Part shown: positions 32,520 to 45,391 of the stretch, one piece after another
Layout: the number at the start of each line of letters is the position of its first letter
Position numbering within the stretch: position 1 is the stretch's first letter
Assembly (NCBI RefSeq): GCF_000328665.1
Contig: NC_019977.1
Coordinates: forward strand, 2,348,011-2,412,010
Direction: 5' to 3'
Source: Methanomethylovorans hollandica DSM 15978
GTDB taxonomy: Archaea; Halobacteriota; Methanosarcinia; Methanosarcinales; Methanosarcinaceae
Length of the DNA: 64,000 nucleotides
Notes under the pieces: generated by a model
Databases searched by the model: none
What the model saw: the letters and a program-made list of their open reading frames with translations, nothing else
What the model was told of the DNA's origin: nothing
Position numbers and translations under genes: made by a program

Positions 32520-33896
32520 ATGATAAAAAGAGGAGAAACATCAGGTAAAAAACTCTTGATCATTGGAGGAGGTGCAGTTGGCATGGCGGTGTCCACCGGA
32601 GCCACAAGACACACCAATTATGATGTAACGGTGATATCCGCTGATAAACACGCATCTTACAGTCAATGTGGCATACCTTACGTTTTTTCAGGTGATGTGC
32701 CTACCTTCGAACAATTAATAGTTAAAGGCCCCGAATTCTTCAAAGAAATGGGTATCAAAGTAAGGCTCGATACCCGGGTGGACTCTATTGACATTGAAAA
32801 CAGGTCGATAAGGATCGGGAAGGAACAACTAGACTTTGACAAGCTTGTAATAGCTACAGGCAGCACACCATCCATACCTAAACAAATAGAAAAGAGCATA
32901 TCCCTGAAGAATGTGTTCACACTACGTACACTATCTGATGGCATGCAGATAGGTGAAGCCTTGGAAAATGCAAAAGATGTTGTCATAATAGGTGCTGGTT
33001 CCATCGGTTCCGAGGTTGCAATAGCTACTGCACGTCGAGGAATAAGAACCTCATTATTGAATAGGAGCAATACGATCTTTTCATCCAGTCTTGACCCAGA
33101 TATGGCAGAAACGGTAATATCATACCTAGAAAAGGAAGGAGTCCAGGTATTGACAGGATATACCCCTACATCCATCAATGGTGAAGAGAGTGTCACATCA
33201 GTAACAGTGAATGAAATAGAGATACCTGCAGATGTAGTATTGATCTCAGTTGGCGTTACCCCTGATTCAGCCCTTGCGGCAGAGGCTGGAATAGACATAG
33301 GAACCACAGGAGGCATAGTCACAAACGACAGACTGCAAATCATGAGACGTGGAGAGGTCATTGAAGATGTTTTCTCCGGAGGAGAATGCACCCAGATATA
33401 TAATTTTGTGACCGGTAAACCCATGCTTAGCCATCTGGCAAGCACAGCACGCAGAATGGCAGGAATTGTAACCGACAATCTGGCAGGCAAAGTAACAAGT
33501 TTTGGGCCGGTGGTAAATCCATGGGTAGCATTGGTTGGTGACCTACAAATAGGATCAGTAGGAATTACCACCGCAGAAGCGGAAAAATATGGAATTGGAG
33601 TTGTAAGTGGCATAGCTACGGGCTCTACACGTGCAGAGTATTTCCCCGGAGCTGGTAAGATATTCATTAAGCTCTTGTTCCATGACAGATACCTGATCGG
33701 TGCTCAGATCATTTCAACAGCCGGTACTAAAGAACGCATTGACGGACTTGCCCTCGCAATAAAGAGAAAACAGACTGTAGATGAAATGCTTGAGATGGAA
33801 ACCTGCTACTCCCCAGTTGTTTCCACACTTCTGGACCCTTTACTATTTGCAGTAAAAGGCGCATACAAGAAAATGCCAAAAAAAGGTGCACGATGA
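32520..33896 (+). CDS. CoA-disulfide reductase/NADH oxidase-like flavoprotein
   Basis: 458 residues of the single-cysteine pyridine-nucleotide-disulfide oxidoreductase family. FAD-binding GGGAVGMAVSTGATR is at about 16-30, the redox Cys50 lies in SYSQCGIPYVFSG, and the NAD fold opens with VVIIGAGSIGSEVAIA. The C-terminal dimerisation domain includes TARRMAG and ATGSTRAEYFPG. Such enzymes reduce CoA disulfide or oxygen; the substrate is not predictable. It overlaps rtcA by four bases, so they are cotranscribed. Confidence 0.88.
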   Translation: MIKRGETSGKKLLIIGGGAVGMAVSTGATRHTNYDVTVISADKHASYSQCGIPYVFSGDVPTFEQLIVKGPEFFKEMGIKVRLDTRVDSIDIENRSIRIGKEQLDFDKLVIATGSTPSIPKQIEKSISLKNVFTLRTLSDGMQIGEALENAKDVVIIGAGSIGSEVAIATARRGIRTSLLNRSNTIFSSSLDPDMAETVISYLEKEGVQVLTGYTPTSINGEESVTSVTVNEIEIPADVVLISVGVTPDSALAAEAGIDIGTTGGIVTNDRLQIMRRGEVIEDVFSGGECTQIYNFVTGKPMLSHLASTARRMAGIVTDNLAGKVTSFGPVVNPWVALVGDLQIGSVGITTAEAEKYGIGVVSGIATGSTRAEYFPGAGKIFIKLLFHDRYLIGAQIISTAGTKERIDGLALAIKRKQTVDEMLEMETCYSPVVSTLLDPLLFAVKGAYKKMPKKGAR

Positions 33897-34888
33897 TAGT
33901 GATCGATGGGTCTTACGGAGAAGGCGGAGGACAGATACTAAGAACAGCAATTGCATTGGCAAGCATCACAGCAACTGATGTGAGGATATTCAATATCAGA
34001 TCTCATAGGCCTCAACCAGGCCTTAAGGCCCAGCATATGAGATCCATAGATGCTGCTGCAAAGCTATGTGATGCTGAAGTCACGGGACTGTATATTGGTT
34101 CTCAGGATATCACCTATTCTCCAATGGAAATAAAGGGGGTAACATATACAGTAGACATTGGAACTGCCGGGAGCATCTCCCTGCTGCTTCAGTGCATAAT
34201 GCCTATGACTGTATATTCCAGGGGGAGGATATCACTTGAAATTACTGGTGGAACCGATGTGGCCTGGTCCCCAACGATCGATTATCTCAATAACGTGACC
34301 TGTAAAGCGCTTGGACAAATGGGATATAATTGTAAAATAGAAGTTCTGAAGAGAGGATACTATCCTGAAGGAGGGGGAAAAGTAAGAGCTTCTTTTGAAC
34401 CTGCAAAACTGCATGGGTTCGAGTTTGAAAAAAAAGAAGAGATAATTAAGGGGATATCACACTCATCAAAACTTCCTGAACATATAGCACAGCGTCAGGC
34501 CCGGGCAGCTAAAATACTGCTGGAGAACAGAGGAATAGAATGCGATATAACTGTATGTATTGAAAATGAACTTTCAACAGGAAGTGGGATCACATTGTGG
34601 AGTGAGTACAGTGGAGCCAGTTATCTTGGAAAGAAAAGCCTTCCTGCTGAAAAGGTTGGGGAGATGGCTGCGGCGCAGATGATCCGACAACTAGATTCCG
34701 GTACTTCGGTAGACCCTTATCTGGCAGACCAGCTTATCACCTATATGGGTCTTGCAGGAGGTGGGTCTTTCACTACCTGCAAAGTCTCAAAACACACACT
34801 AACTAATATTCATATAACTGAAATGCTAATGGGCATGGAATTTGATATACAAAAAAAGGATGAATTCACCAGAATCTCGGTGAAGTGA
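33893..34888 (+). CDS. rtcA: RNA 3'-terminal phosphate cyclase
   Basis: Converts RNA 3'-phosphate ends to 2',3'-cyclic phosphates with ATP through an enzyme-adenylate. 331 residues, family length. GSYGEGGGQILRTA at the N-terminus, RPQPGLKAQH, and the C-terminal stretch KVSKHTLTNIHI with the catalytic histidine match the family. The start overlaps the upstream flavoprotein gene by four bases. The next gene, on the opposite strand, is kptA, another RNA-end enzyme. Confidence 0.95.
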   Translation: MIVIDGSYGEGGGQILRTAIALASITATDVRIFNIRSHRPQPGLKAQHMRSIDAAAKLCDAEVTGLYIGSQDITYSPMEIKGVTYTVDIGTAGSISLLLQCIMPMTVYSRGRISLEITGGTDVAWSPTIDYLNNVTCKALGQMGYNCKIEVLKRGYYPEGGGKVRASFEPAKLHGFEFEKKEEIIKGISHSSKLPEHIAQRQARAAKILLENRGIECDITVCIENELSTGSGITLWSEYSGASYLGKKSLPAEKVGEMAAAQMIRQLDSGTSVDPYLADQLITYMGLAGGGSFTTCKVSKHTLTNIHITEMLMGMEFDIQKKDEFTRISVK

Positions 34889-34903
34889 AAGAACTGAATT
34901 GAG

Positions 34904-35539
34904 TCATTCCTCATTCTCAACTATGCTCAAGTACTCAGCCGGAATAGATCTTGCAAGAGCTATGTCCTGATTGGCAGTAATGACCAGTATTCCGTCGTTT
35001 TGGGCGGAATCCGCGTCTATCTCAAGTATTACAGGATTATCCGTATGTACAAGTGCAGCTTCTACAGATCTTTCATAAGATGTGCTAAGATGCACATAGG
35101 TTTGCCTGATAGGCTTGATGCCACTTTCCAGCAGCATGTCAACCTCTTCCTGGCTGACACCATAATAAAGTGATGGAAGCTTATTTTCCGGATAATCTGA
35201 CTCAAGTTCCACGTCTACAGAGTGACCGTATTTTGCCCTTATGTGCTTGCCATCTATCTCATACCTGTGTTTTCTGTCAGATGTGACAAGGGCAATGAGC
35301 CTTTCCTTGCTGCCCCATCTATAGCGCTCGGTTAGAACATCCAGAAGATGCCCCAAGCTAACCCAGCCATGGTGATCCATTTTCAGGCCCACATCTTCAG
35401 GAAAATGCCTCAGTGCTCCGGAAACAAATTTCCCCAAACGCTCTTCGCGGTCATCGTCAAGGACGTACCGGCCTTCCACACCGCATGCCGGGCATGTCTC
35501 ACCTCTGAAATATCCATGCTCATTGCATTTACGGATCAT
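34904..35539 (-). CDS. kptA: RNA 2'-phosphotransferase (Tpt1/KptA)
   Basis: Transfers an RNA internal or terminal 2'-phosphate to NAD, giving ADP-ribose cyclic phosphate and nicotinamide. The 211-residue protein has an archaeal zinc-ribbon-like N-terminus (CNEHG..CPACG), then the Tpt1 core: SGALRHFPED, GWVSLGHLL, RKHRYEIDG, RAKYGHS, YYGV and the HLST stretch, which carry the conserved Arg/His residues. It converges on rtcA, only 15 bases away. The substrate in archaea is unclear since their tRNA splicing leaves no 2'-phosphate. Confidence 0.93.
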   Translation of the reverse strand: MIRKCNEHGYFRGETCPACGVEGRYVLDDDREERLGKFVSGALRHFPEDVGLKMDHHGWVSLGHLLDVLTERYRWGSKERLIALVTSDRKHRYEIDGKHIRAKYGHSVDVELESDYPENKLPSLYYGVSQEEVDMLLESGIKPIRQTYVHLSTSYERSVEAALVHTDNPVILEIDADSAQNDGILVITANQDIALARSIPAEYLSIVENEE

Positions 35540-35711
35540 GATGTATCGGTTTTGAGATGTAATTAATCGTTAATATATGTTATCGAAACAAAAGAAAGCT
35601 ATGATAATAGTTTCGTCACATTTAATACACACTCATACTATCAGATTACACAAATCCGAGAGATTAAACAAGGGACAAAAGTTCCAAATAATACATGCAC
35701 AGGAAATTATT

Positions 35712-36839
35712 ATGAGCGGAATAGACGAAATCTACTCTAAACTTAGCAAATCCATAAGCAAGGAAGAATTTGTTGAAAAGGTAAATGAAAAAGTGGAACA
35801 GATGGGTGGCCTGTGTGATGAGAAGACAGCAGCCATGCTGGTGGCACATGACTTGGGGCTGAACGAAACCGGAAGTTCTTCACAGAAGATAGTGGATATA
35901 AAAAGCGACAGTGGGAACGTTAATTTAATTGCGAAAGTACTATCTGTATTTCCCATAAGGGAATTCACACGCGGTGATGGCACTTTTGGGAAGGTTGGAA
36001 ATCTTTTGGTTGCAGATGAAACCGGAAGTATAAGGATAACACTATGGGATGATAAAGCAGATCTGATCAATCAGGGCTTCATTGAAATAAGCCAGAACCT
36101 GCAGATAAGCGGTTATGTGAAAGAAGGATATTCAGGTGTTGAAGTTAACGTTGGTAACAACGGGATGATAGCCCATACTGATGAGGACATACAGGTTAAA
36201 AATTCTTCAGTGAAGATATCAGAAATTAAAGATGGGATGGGGAATATTAATGTTATTGGAAGATTACTTGACATTTCTGATACCCGCACCTTTAACAAGA
36301 AAGACGGATCTAAAGGCCGTGTAGGCAATATAACCATTGGTGATGATACAGGTAAGATCAGAATAACACTTTGGGACGACAAGACTGACAAAATGACTGA
36401 ACTACATCCCGGGGACGCTGTAGAGGTGATCAACGGTTATGCACGAGAGAATAACTTCAATCAGCAGGTAGAGATACAAATCGGTAACCATGGCATAGTT
36501 AAGAAGACAGAGACATCTGTGAAATATCAGGAAAATTTCACACCTATCTCAGACATCGTACCTGGAGAATCTTATTCCATACAGGGTTCTGTATCAGGAT
36601 TGGGAGAAATAAGGGAATTCAACAGGGATGATGGCACGGTGAACATGGTATCCAATATATACGTTTCTGATGACACGGGTAGAATAAGAGTAGCTATGTG
36701 GGCAGATCATGCATTGCTGGTGGATGAACTGGATATCGACACACCTATACAGATCATAGATGCCTATGCAAAATCAGGTTTTAATGAAGATATTGAACTC
36801 AGCGCAGGAAACCGGACACGGATAATCATCAACCCCTGA
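35712..36839 (+). CDS. Replication protein A-like single-stranded DNA-binding protein (three OB folds)
   Basis: 375 residues from the ATG at 35712, which has AGGA upstream. Three OB-fold repeats are evident from a repeated strand motif: LLVADETGSIRITLWDDKAD, ITIGDDTGKIRITLWDDKTD and IYVSDDTGRIRVAMWADHAL, starting near residues 97, 208 and 318. There is no zinc finger. This matches methanogen RPA with several OB folds and binds single-stranded DNA in replication and repair. The gene is divergent from kptA. Confidence 0.9.
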   Translation: MSGIDEIYSKLSKSISKEEFVEKVNEKVEQMGGLCDEKTAAMLVAHDLGLNETGSSSQKIVDIKSDSGNVNLIAKVLSVFPIREFTRGDGTFGKVGNLLVADETGSIRITLWDDKADLINQGFIEISQNLQISGYVKEGYSGVEVNVGNNGMIAHTDEDIQVKNSSVKISEIKDGMGNINVIGRLLDISDTRTFNKKDGSKGRVGNITIGDDTGKIRITLWDDKTDKMTELHPGDAVEVINGYARENNFNQQVEIQIGNHGIVKKTETSVKYQENFTPISDIVPGESYSIQGSVSGLGEIREFNRDDGTVNMVSNIYVSDDTGRIRVAMWADHALLVDELDIDTPIQIIDAYAKSGFNEDIELSAGNRTRIIINP

Positions 36840-36902
36840 TGAACTTTAAAAATGTAATAAACATTCCTGCCACTATTCTTTTAGTATATATTCTACGAAC
36901 AC

Positions 36903-36912
36903 CTATATATAC
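36903..36912 (+). promoter_or_regulatory. TATA box ahead of the CBS-gene cluster
   Basis: CTATATATAC at 36903-36912, with the predicted start near 36935 and the first CBS gene at 36978. A second TATA-like stretch lies 20 bases upstream. Confidence 0.5.
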
Positions 36913-36977
36913 AATAAATAATAAGAGTTATTTGTGGGCAATCACTTTCCTTAAAAATAACTGGAGCGTGTTATGCA

Positions 36978-37586
36978 ATGGTTTTGGGTGCACAATGGGA
37001 CCTCGAGACTGACGCCTCTATTGATGAGATTCGTAAGGAGATGTCAGTTCATGAAGTAATGACCAGCAAATTGGTCGTTGCAAACATTAATTCTAGTGTT
37101 CTTGAAATTGCCCGGGAGATGATCAGCCAGAACGTAGGCAGTGTGATCATCACAGATGATATCGGTCCTGTTGGGATAATCACAGAGACGGATATTATCA
37201 GCAAGGTGGTGATCAATAACATGATGCCTGGTACGGTTATGGCAGGCCAGATCATGTCTTCTCCCATCATAGCAACAAAACCATCAACTAACGTCATAGA
37301 AGCTGCAGAACAGATGACCAGATGCAACATCCGCAGGCTTGCAGTGATAGATGGTGATAGGATAGTAGGTATCATCACAGACAGGGATATACTTATAGTA
37401 TCACCTGGTCTCAACACTATTCTTGAAAGCCTGATAGAACTGCACCGGGATGAGAATAATTTTGTCGAAGAGTCGGGGATAGAGAGAGGGATATGCCAGA
37501 GATGCGGTGCGTATACGGACCTTACCCAGATGAATGGACTTATGATCTGTGAAGACTGCAAAGAGGAAGAAGGCTATTACGACTAG
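36978..37586 (+). CDS. Two-CBS-domain protein with C-terminal zinc ribbon
   Basis: 202 residues. Two CBS motifs: VHEVMTSKLVVANINSSVLE and GQIMSSPIIATKPSTNVIE, each followed by the VGIITETD or VGIITDRD strand. The C-terminus is a small zinc ribbon with CQRCG and CEDC. CBS pairs usually bind adenine nucleotides or S-adenosylmethionine and change the activity of a partner; zinc ribbons bind nucleic acid or protein. It is the first of five consecutive CBS genes on this strand. Confidence 0.9.
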   Translation: MVLGAQWDLETDASIDEIRKEMSVHEVMTSKLVVANINSSVLEIAREMISQNVGSVIITDDIGPVGIITETDIISKVVINNMMPGTVMAGQIMSSPIIATKPSTNVIEAAEQMTRCNIRRLAVIDGDRIVGIITDRDILIVSPGLNTILESLIELHRDENNFVEESGIERGICQRCGAYTDLTQMNGLMICEDCKEEEGYYD

Positions 37587-37627
37587 CCGCATATCATTGA
37601 CCTGTCCATCCTAAATGGAGGATATCT

Positions 37628-38416
37628 ATGACCGTAGAGAGGATAATGTCAAAGAATCCCTTATATGTAAAAGAGACTGACCTTATGACCCACGCACGTC
37701 AAGTTATGCGTGACCATTTTTTGAGAGGTGTACCTGTAGTTGACAATTCCATGAGAGTTAGTGGAATACTTACAGATGCAGATATACTTGAAATAAGAGA
37801 CACCAAGTCCAATATTACAGTGAAAGGGTATGTGAGGACAGTCCCTATGATCACACCTGAAACAGAAATATTGAAAGCTGCCCGTTTAATGCTGGAGGCT
37901 GCTCATCATAGGGTTCCTGTGGTATCGGGCCTTGACAGACAGTTAGTGGGTATCATAAGCGACGTAGATATACTGGCCGCTGTCAAACCAACAAAGAAGT
38001 CTCCACTATTTATAGAGGAGATCATGATGACAGATATGATAACCTGCTATCCGGATGACAGCATAACCAAGGTCTGGCATCAAATGCTTGAACACGACTA
38101 TACCGGAATACCTGTAGTATCACACTCCAATGAAACTATTGGAATGGTGACCAGAAGAGATATCATAAAAGCAGGTTATGCAAGAGTTGCGGAAATTGAC
38201 GGGCGGGGCGCAAAAACCGGTGAAGCACCGAAAGTGGAGAAAGTCATGTCCACTCCTATGTACACTTTACCCCCGGAAGCTTCGCTGAAAGAAGCTATTG
38301 ATAAGATCCTGCAATATGACATTGGCAGGATAGCCGTAGCCAGTAATGAGAAGTTATTGGGCATAGTAAGCAGATCTGCATTATTATCTGCCTGCCTTAT
38401 AGGTACTGGCCTCTGA
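37628..38416 (+). CDS. Four-CBS-domain protein
   Basis: 262 residues made almost entirely of four CBS motifs (starting near VERIMSKNPLYV, KGYVRTVPMITP, EIMMTDMITCYP and KVMSTPMYTLPP). GGAGGATATCT precedes the ATG, a strong ribosome binding site. No catalytic domain is present, so it is a stand-alone sensor or regulator. Gap to the preceding gene: 41 bases. Confidence 0.92.
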   Translation: MTVERIMSKNPLYVKETDLMTHARQVMRDHFLRGVPVVDNSMRVSGILTDADILEIRDTKSNITVKGYVRTVPMITPETEILKAARLMLEAAHHRVPVVSGLDRQLVGIISDVDILAAVKPTKKSPLFIEEIMMTDMITCYPDDSITKVWHQMLEHDYTGIPVVSHSNETIGMVTRRDIIKAGYARVAEIDGRGAKTGEAPKVEKVMSTPMYTLPPEASLKEAIDKILQYDIGRIAVASNEKLLGIVSRSALLSACLIGTGL

Positions 38417-38511
38417 AACTGGTGAGGCTATAATACAAAGATGAGGACCTTTTCTTTTTGGTCTCTGAAAGCATTTATACAGAAGAACATTTTATTGTGC
38501 CGGTGGTTGAA

Positions 38512-39501
38512 TTGACAAAAAAGATAACAGATATGGTCACAACAGACAGATCGAAATTCCAGAACAATAAAGAATACCCGGGTAACCACAAAAAAGATCC
38601 TAGTATGCTTAGCACTACAAGTACTATGGATATAGCACCTGTTGAGTTCAAATCCAAGGCTGCAGAAAACAAGGGTGATATGAGTATTGTGGCCAAGAAA
38701 GATGTGATAACCCTCCCTCCCACGACAACTATCATGGGTGCGATAAAAACGATGACAAATAAAGGTTTTAGAAGAGTGCCTATTGCAGATGCAGGTACAA
38801 AACGACTTGAGGGGATAATTACCTCAATGGACATAGTGAACTTCCTCGGAGGTGGTTCAAAGAACCTGCTTGTAGAAAAGTACTATAAAGGAAACCTGCT
38901 GGCAGCTATCAATGCTGATGTGAGCGAGATAATGGAGCGAGATGTGGCTTTCGTTGCCTCAAAAGCGAGTATTTCCGATGCTGTGGAAATAATGATCAAG
39001 AGAAATACAGGAGGTTTGCCTGTAGTTGACGAAGATAGCAGAGTATGCGCCATATTCACTGAAAGGGATTTTCTGGATCTTATGGCAGATACCATTGACT
39101 ATGATTCTATCAAGAACTACATGAGTACAAAAGTAAAAACTGTACCGTTCGATACTACTATAGAGGATGCAGCAAAAATAATGGTCAGTAGGGGCTTTAG
39201 ACGATTGCCTATTGCAAAAGATGGCATATTGATAGGCATTGTTACAGCATCGAATATCATGAATTTCCTAGGTAGTGGAAAGGCCTTCGAAAAGATCATA
39301 ACAGGTAATTCCCACGAGGCTTTCAGTGAACCAATAACCTCACTTATAAACAAAGATGTCGTGTGGGCATCACCTGAAATGGACCTGGGAGATGCTGCAA
39401 GACTGATGATAGAGAAGAGAGTAGGTTCTCTCCCAGTAATAGATAATGATGTGCTCTGCGGTATAATTACTGAAAGAGATTTCCTGAGAGCCGTATATTA
39501 A
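38512..39501 (+). CDS. Four-CBS-domain protein with N-terminal extension
   Basis: About 329 residues from a TTG at 38512, which has GGTGGTTGA upstream; an ATG at 38533 or a TTG at 38458 in the same frame are alternatives. A polar extension of about 50 residues precedes four CBS motifs (VAKKDVITLPPT, MERDVAFVASKAS, YMSTKVKTVPFD, INKDVVWASPEM). Repeats 1 and 3 share GFRRVPIA/GFRRLPIA and a following NFLG, pointing to internal duplication of a two-motif unit. Confidence 0.88.
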   Translation: MTKKITDMVTTDRSKFQNNKEYPGNHKKDPSMLSTTSTMDIAPVEFKSKAAENKGDMSIVAKKDVITLPPTTTIMGAIKTMTNKGFRRVPIADAGTKRLEGIITSMDIVNFLGGGSKNLLVEKYYKGNLLAAINADVSEIMERDVAFVASKASISDAVEIMIKRNTGGLPVVDEDSRVCAIFTERDFLDLMADTIDYDSIKNYMSTKVKTVPFDTTIEDAAKIMVSRGFRRLPIAKDGILIGIVTASNIMNFLGSGKAFEKIITGNSHEAFSEPITSLINKDVVWASPEMDLGDAARLMIEKRVGSLPVIDNDVLCGIITERDFLRAVY

Positions 39502-39551
39502 AAGGATGAATAGCAGCTATCGATTAATATAATGATTGTTGGAGGAAGTAA

Positions 39552-40400
39552 ATGAACGTTTCAGATATAATGAGCTCTCCGGTGTTCATAATGGGACCGG
39601 ATGAGCCTGTGTCACATGCAAGGAATCTGATGCTAAAGCACAAAATAAGCACTATTGTTGTAGTGGATGATGAAAAAATGATGGGCATCCTCTCACAAGC
39701 AGACCTTAGCAGAAAACTTGCCCAGACAGAACCTGTCTGGAGAAGGCGTCCTATAGATAAGATCCCTGTTAGCATGGTGATGACAGAAGACCCGATAACT
39801 ATCTACCCGGAAGCTTCGATATCCCAGGCCGGAAACCTGATGCTGGAGAACAACATTAACTACCTTGCAGTGATGAAAAAGGGACTTGTAGGCATAGTGA
39901 CAGGTACAGATATTGTAAGATATGTTTCAAAACAGGACGAACAAAAATTCGAGAAGAAAGTACATGAGATCATATCTGATGAGCCTGTTCGCATACATAG
40001 ACACCATACCATTAACCATGCAATTGAGGAGATGGAAAAAAATAACGTGGAAGAGGTTCTAGTTGTCGACGATGCTGAAAAGGTAGTAGGGCTGATATCC
40101 GTAAATAACGTTGCCCTCAATATAGTACCTGATGCCGATGGAAAACTCCCCACAAAGAATGTAAAAATGAGTAGGCGCCCAACATCCGGCGCGCAGAGGG
40201 CATACAGATACATAAAAGAGTTACCTCTGGTTGCTGAAGATATCATGTCAGATATCGGTACAATCGTAAAATGGGATGATTCAGCAGTTGACGCTGCAAA
40301 GCTCATTGTGGAGGAGAACTCAAAAGTTCTGCCTGTAGAAAAGGATAGCCAGATCGTTGGAGTTATCCGGAGGAAGGACTTGATAAGAATAGCGCAGTGA
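39552..40400 (+). CDS. Four-CBS-domain protein
   Basis: 282 residues with four CBS motifs ([48 protein letters not shown]). GGAGGAAGTAA is the ribosome binding site. A basic linker, [15 protein letters not shown], separates motifs 3 and 4 and could contact nucleic acid. Gap to the previous gene: 50 bases. Confidence 0.92.
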
Positions 40401-40435
40401 AGGAACAAAAGCTAATCAAACCGAAGGTGAAAAAG

Positions 40436-41212
40436 ATGGAAGTAAAGGACATAATGACAGAACCACCAACTATCAGTAAATCAGATACACTTTCCCACGC
40501 ACTTGACATTATGGAAAAGAAAGAAATGCGTCGGATCCTTGTGAAAAATGAAGACAAGGTAGTTGGGATCCTTACTATGAGAAACCTCACAAGAGAACTC
40601 GGTACCAGAAAGAAGGGAAGTATGCCTGCATCTTCACTGCACGTGGCAACAGCTATCTCCGATAATTTTGTTAAGGTTTTTCCGGATGTAAAGGTGAAGG
40701 ATGTTGTCACCCTCATTGATAAAAACCAGGGAGTTATCATTGTCTGCAAGGATGAAAATGTTATGGGTTGGGTGACACCTGCAGAACTCCTGAAAACTAA
40801 CAACTTCAATGGCTTTGCCGCGGAGTTCATGCAGAGAGAACCTCTGATAGGAAGCCCTGGTGACCGTGTAAGCCATATCAGGCATCTGATGCTTGACAAG
40901 AACGTAGGAAGGATTCCGATCATAGAGGATGGTAAACTGGTAGGAATTGTCACCGAAAAAGATGTGGTAAAGGCTATGAGAGCTTTCAGGGACATCGTTT
41001 CGGGCAATCAGCAAGAAGCCAGGATAAAGAACCTGATAGTTGCAGATATCATGAAGAGAAGTGTAAAAACAGTTAATACCAACACACCTCTTTCAGATGT
41101 GGCAAAGATGATGCTTGAAGAGAACATTGGTGGTCTCCCAGTGATGAACCTTGAAGGCGAGTTCGTCGGATTAATAACCAGAAGGAATTTGGTACACTCA
41201 ATGGCACAGTGA
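40436..41212 (+). CDS. Four-CBS-domain protein adjoining the RNA ligase gene
   Basis: 258 residues from the ATG at 40436, preceded by AAGGTGA; an in-frame GTG at 40397 overlaps the previous stop. Four CBS motifs ([48 protein letters not shown]). The stop codon is two bases from the RNA ligase ATG, so translation of the two is coupled. This makes a functional link between the CBS proteins and the ligase likely. Confidence 0.92.
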
Positions 41213-41214
41213 AC

Positions 41215-42381
41215 ATGGAGTACTATCCGCAAACGGAGCTGGACGTTGAAAATGCTGCATCTTTCCTGGGCATTTCTGTGCAAAGGATGCAGGAATTGAT
41301 GGAGAGAAGAGTGTTGGTACCTAACTGGAACGAGTACCAACACCTATTCCGTTTTGAACATAAGGCTTTGCACATTGATATTGGAAGTGTCCTTGTACAA
41401 AAGGATAATGGATTCAGTCTTATTTTAGGATTCCCAAAGATCAAAAGAGCAATGCTTCTTGGGCCTGCCATTAAAAGCAATTTCGGGGAGATACCCAGGG
41501 TGGCAGTAGAAGAAAAAATGAATGGATATAATGTAAGAGTGATCTTGCTGGACGGCAAACTTGTGGCAATTACACGCAGTGGCCATGTGTGTCCTTATTC
41601 ATCAGAGAAGGTTAATAGCTTGTTGGATCACAATTTTTTTACTGAGAATCCCCAACTTGTGGTATACGGAGAAATGGTAGGCCCTGATAACCCTTACGTG
41701 CCCAAGGAAATTTATCGAATTGAATCTCTGGAATTCTTTATTTTTGATATAAGACATAAGAACACGGGTTTACCCTTGCCGTTATATGAACGCAGGAGCC
41801 TTGCTGAAAAATACGGCTTCCGACAGGTTAGACTTTTCGGAGAATTCGATATCCAGGAAGCTTCTGATATGATCCAGCATATAATCAAGGATATCGGAAG
41901 AAGAGGCCATGAAGGCGTTGTGATCAAGGATCCTAAAATGGTATTGCAACCAATTAAATACACTGCTTCTCAAAGTAATTGTTCTGATCTGCAGCATTCA
42001 ATGAAAGTGTTTAATGAAAGTGGAAGAGACTTCATATTCTCCAGAATAGTAAGAGAGGGGTTCCAGTCAGTGGAATGGGAAGAAAGTGAGGAGGAATTCA
42101 AAAAACGTTGCCTCCGACTGGGTGAAAGTATCCTGCGGCCTATGAAGGAATCCATAATAAAAGTTAGGGATGGGGATAGGGTTGCAGAAGAGTTCACTAT
42201 AAGAGTGAAAGACAGGGCAACCATATCAAAGTTCGAGGAGTACATGAGAAGGCTTGGAATGGATATAAAGTTCAGCGAACCTAAGATCGTGGGCAAGGAA
42301 TACGTTGTACATATGATAAAGATCAACAAGAGCACTAGTGATAAGACATTGGCTATGTGGGAAGGTCAATTGTGGTCATGA
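41215..42381 (+). CDS. ATP-dependent RNA ligase (Rnl3/Pab1020 type)
   Basis: Joins RNA 5'-phosphate and 3'-hydroxyl ends, often by circularising RNA in vitro in this family. About 388 residues. Nucleotidyltransferase motifs in order: motif I EEKMNGYNVR with the adenylated Lys101, motif III VYGEMVGPDN, motif IIIa EFFIFDI, motif IV HEGVVIKDP, motif V QPIKYTAS. The C-terminal domain is the dimerisation region of Pab1020-like ligases. The ATG at 41215 is used here; a GTG six bases upstream overlaps the CBS gene. It is the terminal gene of the CBS cluster. Confidence 0.9.
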   Translation: MEYYPQTELDVENAASFLGISVQRMQELMERRVLVPNWNEYQHLFRFEHKALHIDIGSVLVQKDNGFSLILGFPKIKRAMLLGPAIKSNFGEIPRVAVEEKMNGYNVRVILLDGKLVAITRSGHVCPYSSEKVNSLLDHNFFTENPQLVVYGEMVGPDNPYVPKEIYRIESLEFFIFDIRHKNTGLPLPLYERRSLAEKYGFRQVRLFGEFDIQEASDMIQHIIKDIGRRGHEGVVIKDPKMVLQPIKYTASQSNCSDLQHSMKVFNESGRDFIFSRIVREGFQSVEWEESEEEFKKRCLRLGESILRPMKESIIKVRDGDRVAEEFTIRVKDRATISKFEEYMRRLGMDIKFSEPKIVGKEYVVHMIKINKSTSDKTLAMWEGQLWS

Positions 42382-42435
42382 AAAAAGATATATTTGTATG
42401 ATAGCATTCGTAAGCTCATAAAGACAGGTGCAAAC

Positions 42436-43470
42436 ATGACAAAGATCACTATAATAGGTAGCCAGCAAAGTGGAAAAACAACGCTTGCTGCAAAAATGGG
42501 AAAGAAAGGCAACGTATCGGACTTCACAATGTATGATTTTGCCAAAGGCGATAAGATAATGACTATCATAGACCCCACGGGATACCCCGATTCTGTTAAA
42601 CCATTGATAGCCTCGCTTACTCTTTCCGACATCGCCATCCTATGCGTGCCTCCCACAGGTCTGGATGCCTATGCAGGGGAATGTATTGTCTGCCTGGAGT
42701 GCATGGGATACAAGCATGGCCTTGTGCTGCTGACAAAATCTGATACCACTTACCCTCAGGCAACAGATGAATTGAAGACAAAGTTGCAGAACATCACAAA
42801 AGGTACGGCGCTTGAGCATTGGGAGTATATGACAGTTTCCACTAAAACCTTTGAAGGTATGGAAGAGCTCAAGGAAAAGATCTTCACTATGGGTGAAACT
42901 ATCGATGAGGAGAATAAGAAAAAGGCCACTTTGCCAACAAGGGTGATAATAGACCAAACATTCAATGTCACTGGAATCGGGTGTGTTGTACTTGGTGTTG
43001 TAATGCAGGGCACTGTCAATGCAAAAGACAAAATGACAGCTTATCCCACCAGTAAACCGCTGGAGATTAGATCGATACAAATGCATGATGTGGATGTTAG
43101 AACTGCGCCATCCGGAGCTAGAGTAGGCCTTGCTCTTAAAGGGATACAGTCAAAAGATATCGATAGAGGTCATGTTCTTTCCCTTGATGAAATTATCAGT
43201 GAGAATTTGAAAATAAAATGCAGACTCTCACCTTTTTCAAAAGGTTTCAATACTGGAAGTGTGTTGCATGTATTCGTTGGACTGCAATCGTCCCCTATGC
43301 GTGTAAGCAGCATAGAGAAAAAAGGGAATATAGTAGAAAAAGCATCTGCTGGAGATGAATATGTTCTTGAACTGACGGGTATGAAGGAGATCTCGTATTC
43401 ACAACAGGATAGGTTCATACTCACAGATCTGGACGAAAAACAAAGGTTCATAGGGTATGGTTCCCTTTGA
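42436..43470 (+). CDS. Diverged EF-Tu/SelB-like translational GTPase
   Basis: 344 residues from the ATG at 42436 (AGGTG upstream). The G1 loop GSQQSGKTT (8-16), G3 DPTG and G4 TKSD are present, so GTP binding is likely. Two beta-barrel domains follow, including a domain-II-like strand (IGCVVLGVVMQGTV). The switch I region is short and there is no C-terminal RNA-binding winged helix of the SelB kind. Such proteins occur in methanogens as EF-1-alpha-related GTPases of unknown role. It lies 54 bases after the RNA ligase gene. Confidence 0.8.
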   Translation: MTKITIIGSQQSGKTTLAAKMGKKGNVSDFTMYDFAKGDKIMTIIDPTGYPDSVKPLIASLTLSDIAILCVPPTGLDAYAGECIVCLECMGYKHGLVLLTKSDTTYPQATDELKTKLQNITKGTALEHWEYMTVSTKTFEGMEELKEKIFTMGETIDEENKKKATLPTRVIIDQTFNVTGIGCVVLGVVMQGTVNAKDKMTAYPTSKPLEIRSIQMHDVDVRTAPSGARVGLALKGIQSKDIDRGHVLSLDEIISENLKIKCRLSPFSKGFNTGSVLHVFVGLQSSPMRVSSIEKKGNIVEKASAGDEYVLELTGMKEISYSQQDRFILTDLDEKQRFIGYGSL

Positions 43471-43476
43471 ACGGAA

Positions 43477-43815
43477 TCATTTTTTAGGGGAGAGGTTTTT
43501 AAACCCGTCCAGCATGGAAGGCCTTTCAACTGCTTTTGTAAGGGAAGTATTCTCAGGCAGGTCTGTCAATTGCGGCCTTTCTAAAGGAACCGGAGAACCT
43601 GCCTGAAAAAGATCCCTCTTTTTGAAAGATCTGCTTTCCACTGTGGTAGAAGATTGTTTAGTGTATATTTAGATAATGTTTTTCCAATTTCTTCATAAAC
43701 TTGCTTTCGTTCAGCAAGTGTCCGATTATATACTTGCCTACATAATTCCAAGCTCCGCTGTATCTGTCGAATTTGAGATTTGGTTGGATAGATACGAAAC
43801 ATTCCACGACCAAAG
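43477..43815 (-). pseudogene. IS200/IS605-type TnpB relic with large internal deletion
   Basis: The minus strand begins with MFRIYPTKSQIRQIQRSLEL and LCRQVYNRTLAERK..LPQWK, the N-terminal signature of TnpB. It then jumps, out of frame, to the C-terminal tail AGSPVPLERPQLTDLPENTS ending with a TGA at 43477-43479. The catalytic core and zinc finger are missing, which removes roughly 300 codons. A hairpin (CCACGA..TCGTGG at about 43803-43821) near its upstream end resembles the subterminal structures of IS605 elements. Confidence 0.8.
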
Positions 43816-43958: not shown

Positions 43959-44987
43959 TTATATATTAGCGATCTGTATTCCTGTCGCTACATTTTGCAA
44001 TAGCTGGAAAGCGATCTTTTGAGAGGGCCAGGATCCCAGACCACAATCAGGACCTACATACCTTATTCTTTCACCAAAGATCGAATAGGCCTTTTCAAGC
44101 CTTTTACTGATAACATCCGGAGTTTCAAGTTCCGTAACTATCTCCTGAAGACGTGATGCGTCCTTCCAGACATTAGTACCATATTTGTCATTGAGTACTG
44201 AAACAAGATTTGAAATATCAGTTCTTGCAATGCCCACCCTCAGAAAAGAATCTGATTCATCTAGCACTTTTGCATCAATGAGATCAAGATATGAAGGATT
44301 ACCTGCTGATTCGACCCCTATAACATTGATTTGGGAAGTGTCACAGGCTATTTTATAGTGCAGGGGCGAATGCAGATGTATCTGTACATCAATACCTTTA
44401 CGGTGAGCTGAACGAGTGGCTATCCTAAGAGCTTCTATGAGTTCATCATCATCGAACATGACCTGGGGATTTATACCAATGCTTGGCTCATCTATGGAAA
44501 CCGCACTTACGTTCAGATATCCTGAATTCTCTATGGAGTTTTTCAGAAAACGGTCAACACTTTCTGCAAAAAGATAGAGTATGTCGGTATATTCCGTTCC
44601 CCCGAACTCTTTTAAGTACATTTCCAGAGGACCTGTTACGCATACCCTGGTATTTTGCTTCTCGCCATGAGATTGCATATACATTTGAGCTGCTGGCTGT
44701 ATAGCTTCCAGTTCTACTATCCTGGCAGCATTCTCTTTGACCTTAAAAGGCTCTTCTGTATTTTCCGGATCCTTTATTATAGAAAGGAACTGTTCGTTCA
44801 TATCCTGATATTGGGGATATGTGGGAGACTCAACTCCTGCATCTATCTTCTGCTGAAATGAATCATTAATTAACTGGAACAGTTTTTCACGGTCTGAGTG
44901 CTTTGAAAATGCCTTTTGCATCCATTCCTTGGTCATACTTTCAGGAAGAGGGTAACTACCTATGTCATCAAAGATCAGATTATTCAT
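43959..44987 (-). CDS. Core methionine synthase-like protein (MetE C-terminal domain family)
   Basis: 342 residues, corresponding to only the catalytic half of cobalamin-independent methionine synthase. Zinc-ligand candidates are His in IHLHSPLH (about 203) and Cys315 in GPDCGLGSWPSQ. It opens with FDDIGSYPLP, typical of archaeal short MetE proteins that take methyl groups from a corrinoid protein rather than folate. No ribosome binding site is seen; a TATA-like CCTATATTT lies at about 45012-45022, so the message may be leaderless. It converges with the SpoIIM fragment, nine bases away. Confidence 0.82.
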   Translation of the reverse strand: MNNLIFDDIGSYPLPESMTKEWMQKAFSKHSDREKLFQLINDSFQQKIDAGVESPTYPQYQDMNEQFLSIIKDPENTEEPFKVKENAARIVELEAIQPAAQMYMQSHGEKQNTRVCVTGPLEMYLKEFGGTEYTDILYLFAESVDRFLKNSIENSGYLNVSAVSIDEPSIGINPQVMFDDDELIEALRIATRSAHRKGIDVQIHLHSPLHYKIACDTSQINVIGVESAGNPSYLDLIDAKVLDESDSFLRVGIARTDISNLVSVLNDKYGTNVWKDASRLQEIVTELETPDVISKRLEKAYSIFGERIRYVGPDCGLGSWPSQKIAFQLLQNVATGIQIANI

Positions 44988-45070: not shown

Positions 45071-45391
45071 TTAGTCCCGCCGCAATTTTCCCTTCTTTGC
45101 AACGTGTTCAACGTAATAGTCGACACATTTCTGTGAGTAATCAATGGAGACCTTGGACATGTGAGCAACTATCTCACTTAAAGGTCTTTCAACTTGTATG
45201 GTACGCCTGAATATACCGTATTTTTCATAATGCTTTGTTACAGTCTCAAGCATAATGTCCTGTAATTGCAAGACATTCAACTTTTCCGAGGGAGAAAGTT
45301 TTTCGAAATCTTTCATTAGCTTCCTTATATGGTCCCTATTCTTTTCATCTACCTCTAATTCGGAAATAGGGTGCTTAATGTGATCCTCCAC
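45071..45391 (-). CDS. Conserved hypothetical helical protein
   Basis: 106 residues, charged and mostly helical (HIRKLMKDFEKLSPSEKLNV, LQLQDIMLETVTKHYEKYG). No signal peptide, cysteine motif or membrane helix. It lies between the methionine synthase-like gene and the symporter gene, all on the minus strand. I do not recognise a family. Composition and codon use look coding. Confidence 0.65.
   Translation of the reverse strand: MEDHIKHPISELEVDEKNRDHIRKLMKDFEKLSPSEKLNVLQLQDIMLETVTKHYEKYGIFRRTIQVERPLSEIVAHMSKVSIDYSQKCVDYYVEHVAKKGKLRRD

Follow-up and report, generated by a model that had tools for sequence, protein, structure and literature searches.

An ancient array of CBS-domain genes beside an RNA ligase in Methanomethylovorans hollandica: a probable ribosome hibernation cluster

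Why should an archaeal chromosome carry five consecutive CBS-domain genes directly in front of an RNA ligase and a homologue of translation GTPases? The locus lies in a 64,000-nucleotide stretch of the Methanomethylovorans hollandica DSM 15978 genome (NC_019977.1, positions 2,348,011 to 2,412,010; here called the window, whose numbering is used throughout), with its genes on the plus strand. CBS1 (36978..37586) encodes two CBS domains (residues 24-77 and 91-139) followed by a zinc ribbon (C173, C176, C191, C194) and belongs to a Ta0289-like family, and CBS2 (37628..38416), CBS3 (38458..39501), CBS4 (39552..40400) and CBS5 (40397..41212) each encode four tandem CBS domains and no other domain, CBS3 after a 77-residue N-terminal extension. 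An ATP-dependent RNA ligase of the Rnl3/TIGR01209 family (41209..42381) and an aSelBL (SelB-like, 'EF-Pyl') GTPase homologue (42436..43470, in a frame open from 42394) follow. The first-pass annotation, made from the sequence alone, had described this gene content, and domain counts with Pfam and with a profile made from the array's own CBS domains, TIGR01209 and Lig_C matches for the ligase and the similarity that the GTPase shows both to SelB and to structure 3wnb (EF-Pyl/aSelBL) bear it out. The last CBS stop codon, which it had put two bases before the ligase start, in fact lies within a 4-bp overlap (ligase GTG at 41209, CBS5 stop at 41210-41212). CBS4 and CBS5 also overlap by 4 bp, and the remaining gaps are 41 bp (CBS1/CBS2), 41 bp (CBS2/CBS3) and 50 bp (CBS3/CBS4). 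The 18 CBS domains between 36978 and 41212 make up about half of those in the genome: a genome-wide Pfam scan gave 37 PF00571 matches, 17 of them here, and the eighteenth array domain was picked up by the array-derived profile. The gene order is found again in many archaeal families, far beyond chance. The array is real, ancient and for the most part already explained as a hibernation cluster; what we add is how far its association with the ligase is conserved, the less explored and testable part.

The evidence that carries this answer comes from a sequence search of solved structures, in which CBS2 matches chain 4 of 9ZNF (E 3e-75), CBS3 chain 5 of 9ZNF (E 5e-104), CBS4 chain 6 of 9ZNI (E 2e-91) and CBS5 chain 7 of 9ZNI and 9ZNG (E 3e-106). 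The uL3 of M. hollandica matches a chain in 9NRI, 9NTA, 9O17, 9OU7, 9ZNF, 9ZNG and 9ZNI, and because it does so in each of the last three entries, these are ribosome structures. The CBS2-CBS5 orthologues of a Methanosarcina acetivorans locus, L114, which we take to be from strain C2A, are identical to 9ZNF_4, 9ZNF_5, 9ZNI_6 and 9ZNG/9ZNI_7 throughout the printed alignments. Relative to the corresponding genes, both the CBS chains of 9ZNF and chain 7 of 9ZNG have six additional residues, which suggests C-terminal tags.

An April 2026 paper (PMC13324472) describes six archaeal families of CBS modules (CM) and presents a CM-5/4/1/2 cluster as hibernation factors, three of which (CM-1, CM-4 and CM-5) were detected in dormant ribosomes, with CM-2 termed unresolved and proteins with two CBS domains, such as CBS1, set aside; CBS1 is thus outside the CM families. 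The array order, conserved across relatives, matches the published one, and, judged from this order and from the best relatives, CBS2, CBS3, CBS4 and CBS5 would correspond to CM-5, CM-4, CM-1 (the C-terminal half of Dri) and CM-2, respectively. If CBS5 is CM-2, then this family is a chain of 9ZNG and 9ZNI, although it is called unresolved in PMC13324472. According to the same paper, HibA, which has an HPF/RaiA domain, rarely co-occurs with CM proteins; the M. hollandica genome has no match to the RaiA/HPF model PF02482, which may miss a divergent HibA, and this agrees with the published exclusion. Because the M. acetivorans orthologues are ribosome chains and the gene order is that of CM-5/4/1/2, the array belongs to a known kind of hibernation cluster, and we hold with good confidence that its CBS genes encode ribosome hibernation factors. 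The first-pass annotation had thought of an energy-gated module for RNA repair or ribosome control, made of sensors, ligase and GTPase. This is partly supported: ribosome control stands for the CBS genes, through these structures and this order, energy gating and ribosomal RNA repair by the ligase would be hypotheses, and the GTPase is not part of the core (see below).

Two parts of CBS4 may touch the ribosome: a loop between CBS domains 1 and 2 (WRRRPID; 39720..39767, plus strand), whose mean conservation of 0.84 is above that of the CBS cores, and a conserved, basic insertion of 41 residues between CBS domains 3 and 4 (40113..40235, plus strand; family mean charge +4.1). The ribosome-contacting, functional loop of HibA and Dri is at the CBS domain 3-4 position (PMC13324472). 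CBS5 also carries a conserved loop outside its CBS cores, and we regard these CBS4 and CBS5 loops as candidate ribosome contacts.

Related modules occur in other arrangements. One locus encodes a 577-residue fusion of a CBS2-type and a CBS3-type module with eight CBS domains (L205:10085-11815, minus strand), a Dri-like two-module plan of other composition, and two genomes of one genus have a second cluster away from the ligase, in the order CBS1-CBS2-(CBS3 fused to CBS4, about 630 residues) (L222:5544-7436 and L223:5464-7347, minus strand). A further gene of the genome with four CBS domains stands beside a UspA-like gene (L228, genome C2:2183244-2184068, minus strand), outside the five array families and possibly of the CM-3/HhpR type. 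Chain a of PDB entry 9L96 is a 406-residue CBS protein in another archaeal ribosome structure (uL3 of 9L94-9L9V), perhaps a haloarchaeal HibA.

How does the ligase come to stand here? It scores 387.8 bits against TIGR01209 (cut-off 136.9), has a Lig_C domain, as expected of an Rnl3 ligase of the Pab1020 type, and keeps the invariant residues of its family (E101 E102 K103 x N105 G106; E235 G236; K250 Y251 T252). We surveyed 394 genomes of the phylum, of which 159 have the ligase above cut-off, 242 CBS3, 189 CBS5 and 175 CBS2; linkage was counted in the subset of genomes with placed genes, among the matches listed. There, ligase and CBS3 are no more than 8 kb apart in 104 of the 112 genomes where both were placed; for ligase and CBS5 the count is 90 of 91. 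The exceptions comprise a contig break and seven members of a single genus (g5), which resembles Methanolobus in its gene pattern. The link between CBS genes and ligase, for which the first-pass annotation had suggested a comparison of related genomes, therefore holds; the five-gene block and the ligase are syntenic across relatives, frequently with 4-bp overlaps. In a ligase tree of 60 rows, a branch with 100/100 support divides eight unlinked ligases of haloarchaeal type from 51 linked rows, among which a single unlinked row is placed, so that the CBS-linked ligases are one group with one loss of the link among the sampled loci. One family (f9), probably Methanobacteriaceae, lacks CBS2, CBS4 and CBS5 at the locus and has CBS1, CBS3, ligase and a DUF1464 gene closely packed in one operon, whose genes often overlap by 4 bp; since the full array is present in its nearest relative in the tree, this arrangement is a reduction. 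The DUF1464 gene comes immediately after the ligase gene or overlaps it (L081:10097-11107; L083:10092-11057). We found no report on the degree to which the ligase-CBS link is conserved.

Two candidate arrangements were discarded. A 640-residue open frame in one genome (G240), taken at first for a CBS5-ligase fusion, is a GC-rich artefact without a CBS domain. An obligate CBS2-CBS3 pair, to which 9ZNF and the joint relocation of both genes in some g5 genomes had pointed, is not supported, because CBS2 persists in 10 of the 12 g5 genomes without CBS3; it stands alone in the three such loci that were inspected.

In our working model, CBS2-CBS5, as stand-alone double-Bateman modules, would attach to idle ribosomes during a shortage of energy or carbon and, by analogy with HibA and Dri, may occupy functional sites of both subunits (the mRNA channel and the peptidyl transferase centre), with adenylates probably tuning them at a subset of sites. 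CBS1, an accessory that is almost always present, would perhaps serve as regulator or anchor. The ligase would most likely seal 5'-phosphate/3'-hydroxyl breaks in ribosome-associated RNAs (rRNA, C/D guide RNAs), or circularise such RNAs, and in this way keep stored ribosomes reusable, and aSelBL, at this position in Methanosarcinaceae only, might add protection or delivery of Cys-tRNA. For the ligase, the proposal draws on Thermococcus kodakarensis, in which a ligase knockout loses circular C/D RNAs and piles up rRNA fragments near the 23S sarcin-ricin loop and the 16S 5' end (PMC9014305). Because of this phenotype and the synteny with ribosome-storage factors, RNA maintenance of stored ribosomes is our best guess for the ligase; that it has such a part in ribosome storage is put forward tentatively, at somewhat short of even chances. 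The stricter form, in which Rnl3 is a dedicated hibernation component that seals rRNA or small RNAs of stored ribosomes together with CBS1 and CBS3, in an association that outlasts the loss of other CBS genes, is conceivable and slightly less probable still.

A number of observations weigh against these proposals. In rich medium the T. kodakarensis knockout shows no growth defect, and the authors of that study allow for an indirect effect on rRNA via guide RNAs (PMC9014305). In many families the CBS cluster lacks the ligase, and the full five-gene array, too, can occur without it; in four such loci that were inspected, no replacement ligase was seen at the ligase position, which is taken by MscS channels, an aminotransferase or deoxyhypusine synthase. 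Conversely, haloarchaeal-type genomes have the ligase without CBS genes, and in Methanosarcina an opposite-strand gene sits between CBS5 and the ligase. The search of solved structures gave no orthologous chain among the 9ZN entries for the ligase, for CBS1 or for aSelBL, and the module of HibA, the single relative tested, binds AMP at 12 uM, with no clear effect of nucleotides on its ribosome binding (PMC13324472).

The separate occurrence of cluster and ligase, the Methanosarcina insertion, the restriction of the GTPase to Methanosarcinaceae and the absence of ligase and GTPase chains from the 9ZN entries all favour a hibernation unit of CBS genes only, with ligase and GTPase as co-expressed neighbours that have unrelated jobs (guide-RNA circularisation and Cys-tRNA protection, respectively). 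To this reading we give a considerable probability, a little below one half; it accounts less well for a ligase that keeps its link in nearly all genomes where both were placed, lost that link once among the sampled loci and still overlaps the CBS1-CBS3 operon after three other CBS genes were lost. In a further alternative, the array would encode adenylate sensors with direct control over the ligase, sensors and ligase forming a heteromeric, energy-gated machine for RNA repair, and the binding of ribosomes would be secondary. The overlapping CBS1-CBS3-ligase operon of one family would suit it, as would the nucleotide sites. In known CBS pairs, a Ser/Thr and an Asp hold phosphate and ribose, and both canonical residues are retained (at roughly 80 percent or above) at about 10 of the 18 sites: both in CBS1, sites 2 and 3 in CBS2, sites 1, 2 and 4 in CBS3, sites 1 and 2 in CBS4 and site 3 in CBS5. 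The array is therefore not a set of 18 equal sensors, and not every motif of the dense sensor array that the first-pass annotation had read here looks competent. All four orthologues with four CBS domains are chains of ribosome structures and the five-gene array can exist where the ligase is absent, which makes direct gating of the ligase unlikely; energy gating of the array itself may exist. That the CBS genes encode transcription regulators of the HhpR/CM-3 type is very improbable, since the NCBIfam HhpR matches of all five proteins are far under the family cut-off of 520 bits, a domain scan found no DNA-binding domain and the orthologues sit on ribosomes.

CBS1, at the head of the array, ends in a C-x2-C...C-x2-C ribbon, all four cysteines of which are present in 127 of 127 homologues. 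Beside it, in many families, stands a divergently transcribed Era/Der-like GTPase gene of about 211-216 codons (L203:6055-6687, L206:11359-11991, L208:12666-13313, L213:12260-12898).

The aSelBL GTPase at the other end has 344 residues, SelB-like domains 1-3, a score below the selB cut-off and an altered switch motif (DPTGY where DxPGH is expected), and it lacks the SECIS domain at the C-terminus. Its frame opens with TTG at 42394; the ATG at 42436 is the likely start, judged by homology and by the customary spacing (median 57 bp). It is close to SelB, and its best structure match is the EF-1A-like protein 3wnb (E 2.6e-112), which we take to be M. mazei MM1309. In the sections of the two published accounts covered here, MM1309 binds Cys-tRNA (PMC4329189), and Atkinson 2011 (PMC3037878) notes for Methanosarcinales that the ligase lies upstream of aSelBL and that a CBS gene often precedes the ligase. 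As a core component the GTPase is ruled out, since it stands at the 3' side of the ligase only in family f1 (Methanosarcinaceae); a role in ribosome restart or in guarding Cys-tRNA is speculation. In another family (f2), an archaeal EngB GTPase gene occupies this position (L066:5593-6210).

Upstream of CBS1, a TATA-like element (TATATATA, about 36904-36911) and a leader with a AGTTATTT/AAATAACT inverted repeat (36900..36962, plus strand), nearly identical in a congener, are likely the head promoter of the operon, and a terminator-like hairpin with a T run, recognised by pattern only, lies where the GTPase gene ends (43457..43480, plus strand). The TATA-like element, the conserved leader and the terminal hairpin would be compatible with a single transcript, and co-transcription is not universal, because the opposite-strand gene of Methanosarcina interrupts the row between CBS5 and ligase. 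A scan for sigma-70-type promoters, which is uninformative for an archaeon, gave counts near chance. Directly upstream (33893-36839) are genes for RtcA (plus strand), KptA (minus strand) and RPA (plus strand), a set common to many Methanosarcinaceae; RtcA and KptA are both present in at least 22 of 80 loci whose surrounding DNA was examined and, as RNA-end enzymes, fit an RNA-repair neighbourhood that is restricted to this lineage. The two downstream genes (43959-44987 and 45071-45391, minus strand) have no Pfam match at 1e-3, and the first recurs near the locus in relatives.

The ligase link connects ribosome storage with an orphan archaeal RNA ligase that serves as a laboratory reagent and whose biology is little known, and the core named by our analysis (CBS1, CBS3 and ligase) is amenable to knockout in the genetic model M. 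acetivorans. Should the ligase indeed maintain stored ribosomes, RNA repair would be part of methanogen dormancy.

As for the known systems nearest to this locus, its GTPase is orthologous to aSelBL/EF-Pyl (PMC3037878; MM1309, PMC4329189), for which the sections covered here propose no hibernation role. CBS1 shares its domain plan with CBS and zinc-ribbon proteins of the Ta0289 type (1pvm, 2qh1; E about 1e-10) and differs from them in its fixed position heading the array operon. The ligase has the TIGR01209 family and the invariant catalytic motifs in common with MthRnl, Pab1020 and TkoRnl, whereas CBS linkage is not discussed for these enzymes in the searched texts (PMC5599603, PMC9014305). 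Dri of Pyrobaculum and HibA of Pyrococcus likewise place CBS modules with a long CBS domain 3-4 loop on ribosomes; in contrast to the single modules of the array, Dri is a two-module fusion and HibA carries an HPF/RaiA domain (PMC13324472). Closest is the CM-5/4/1/2 cluster, the main text of whose description (PMC13324472) does not mention the ligase, and with which, and with the chains of 9ZNF, 9ZNG and 9ZNI, the array shares four proteins of four CBS domains in identical order, each orthologous to a ribosome-bound chain.

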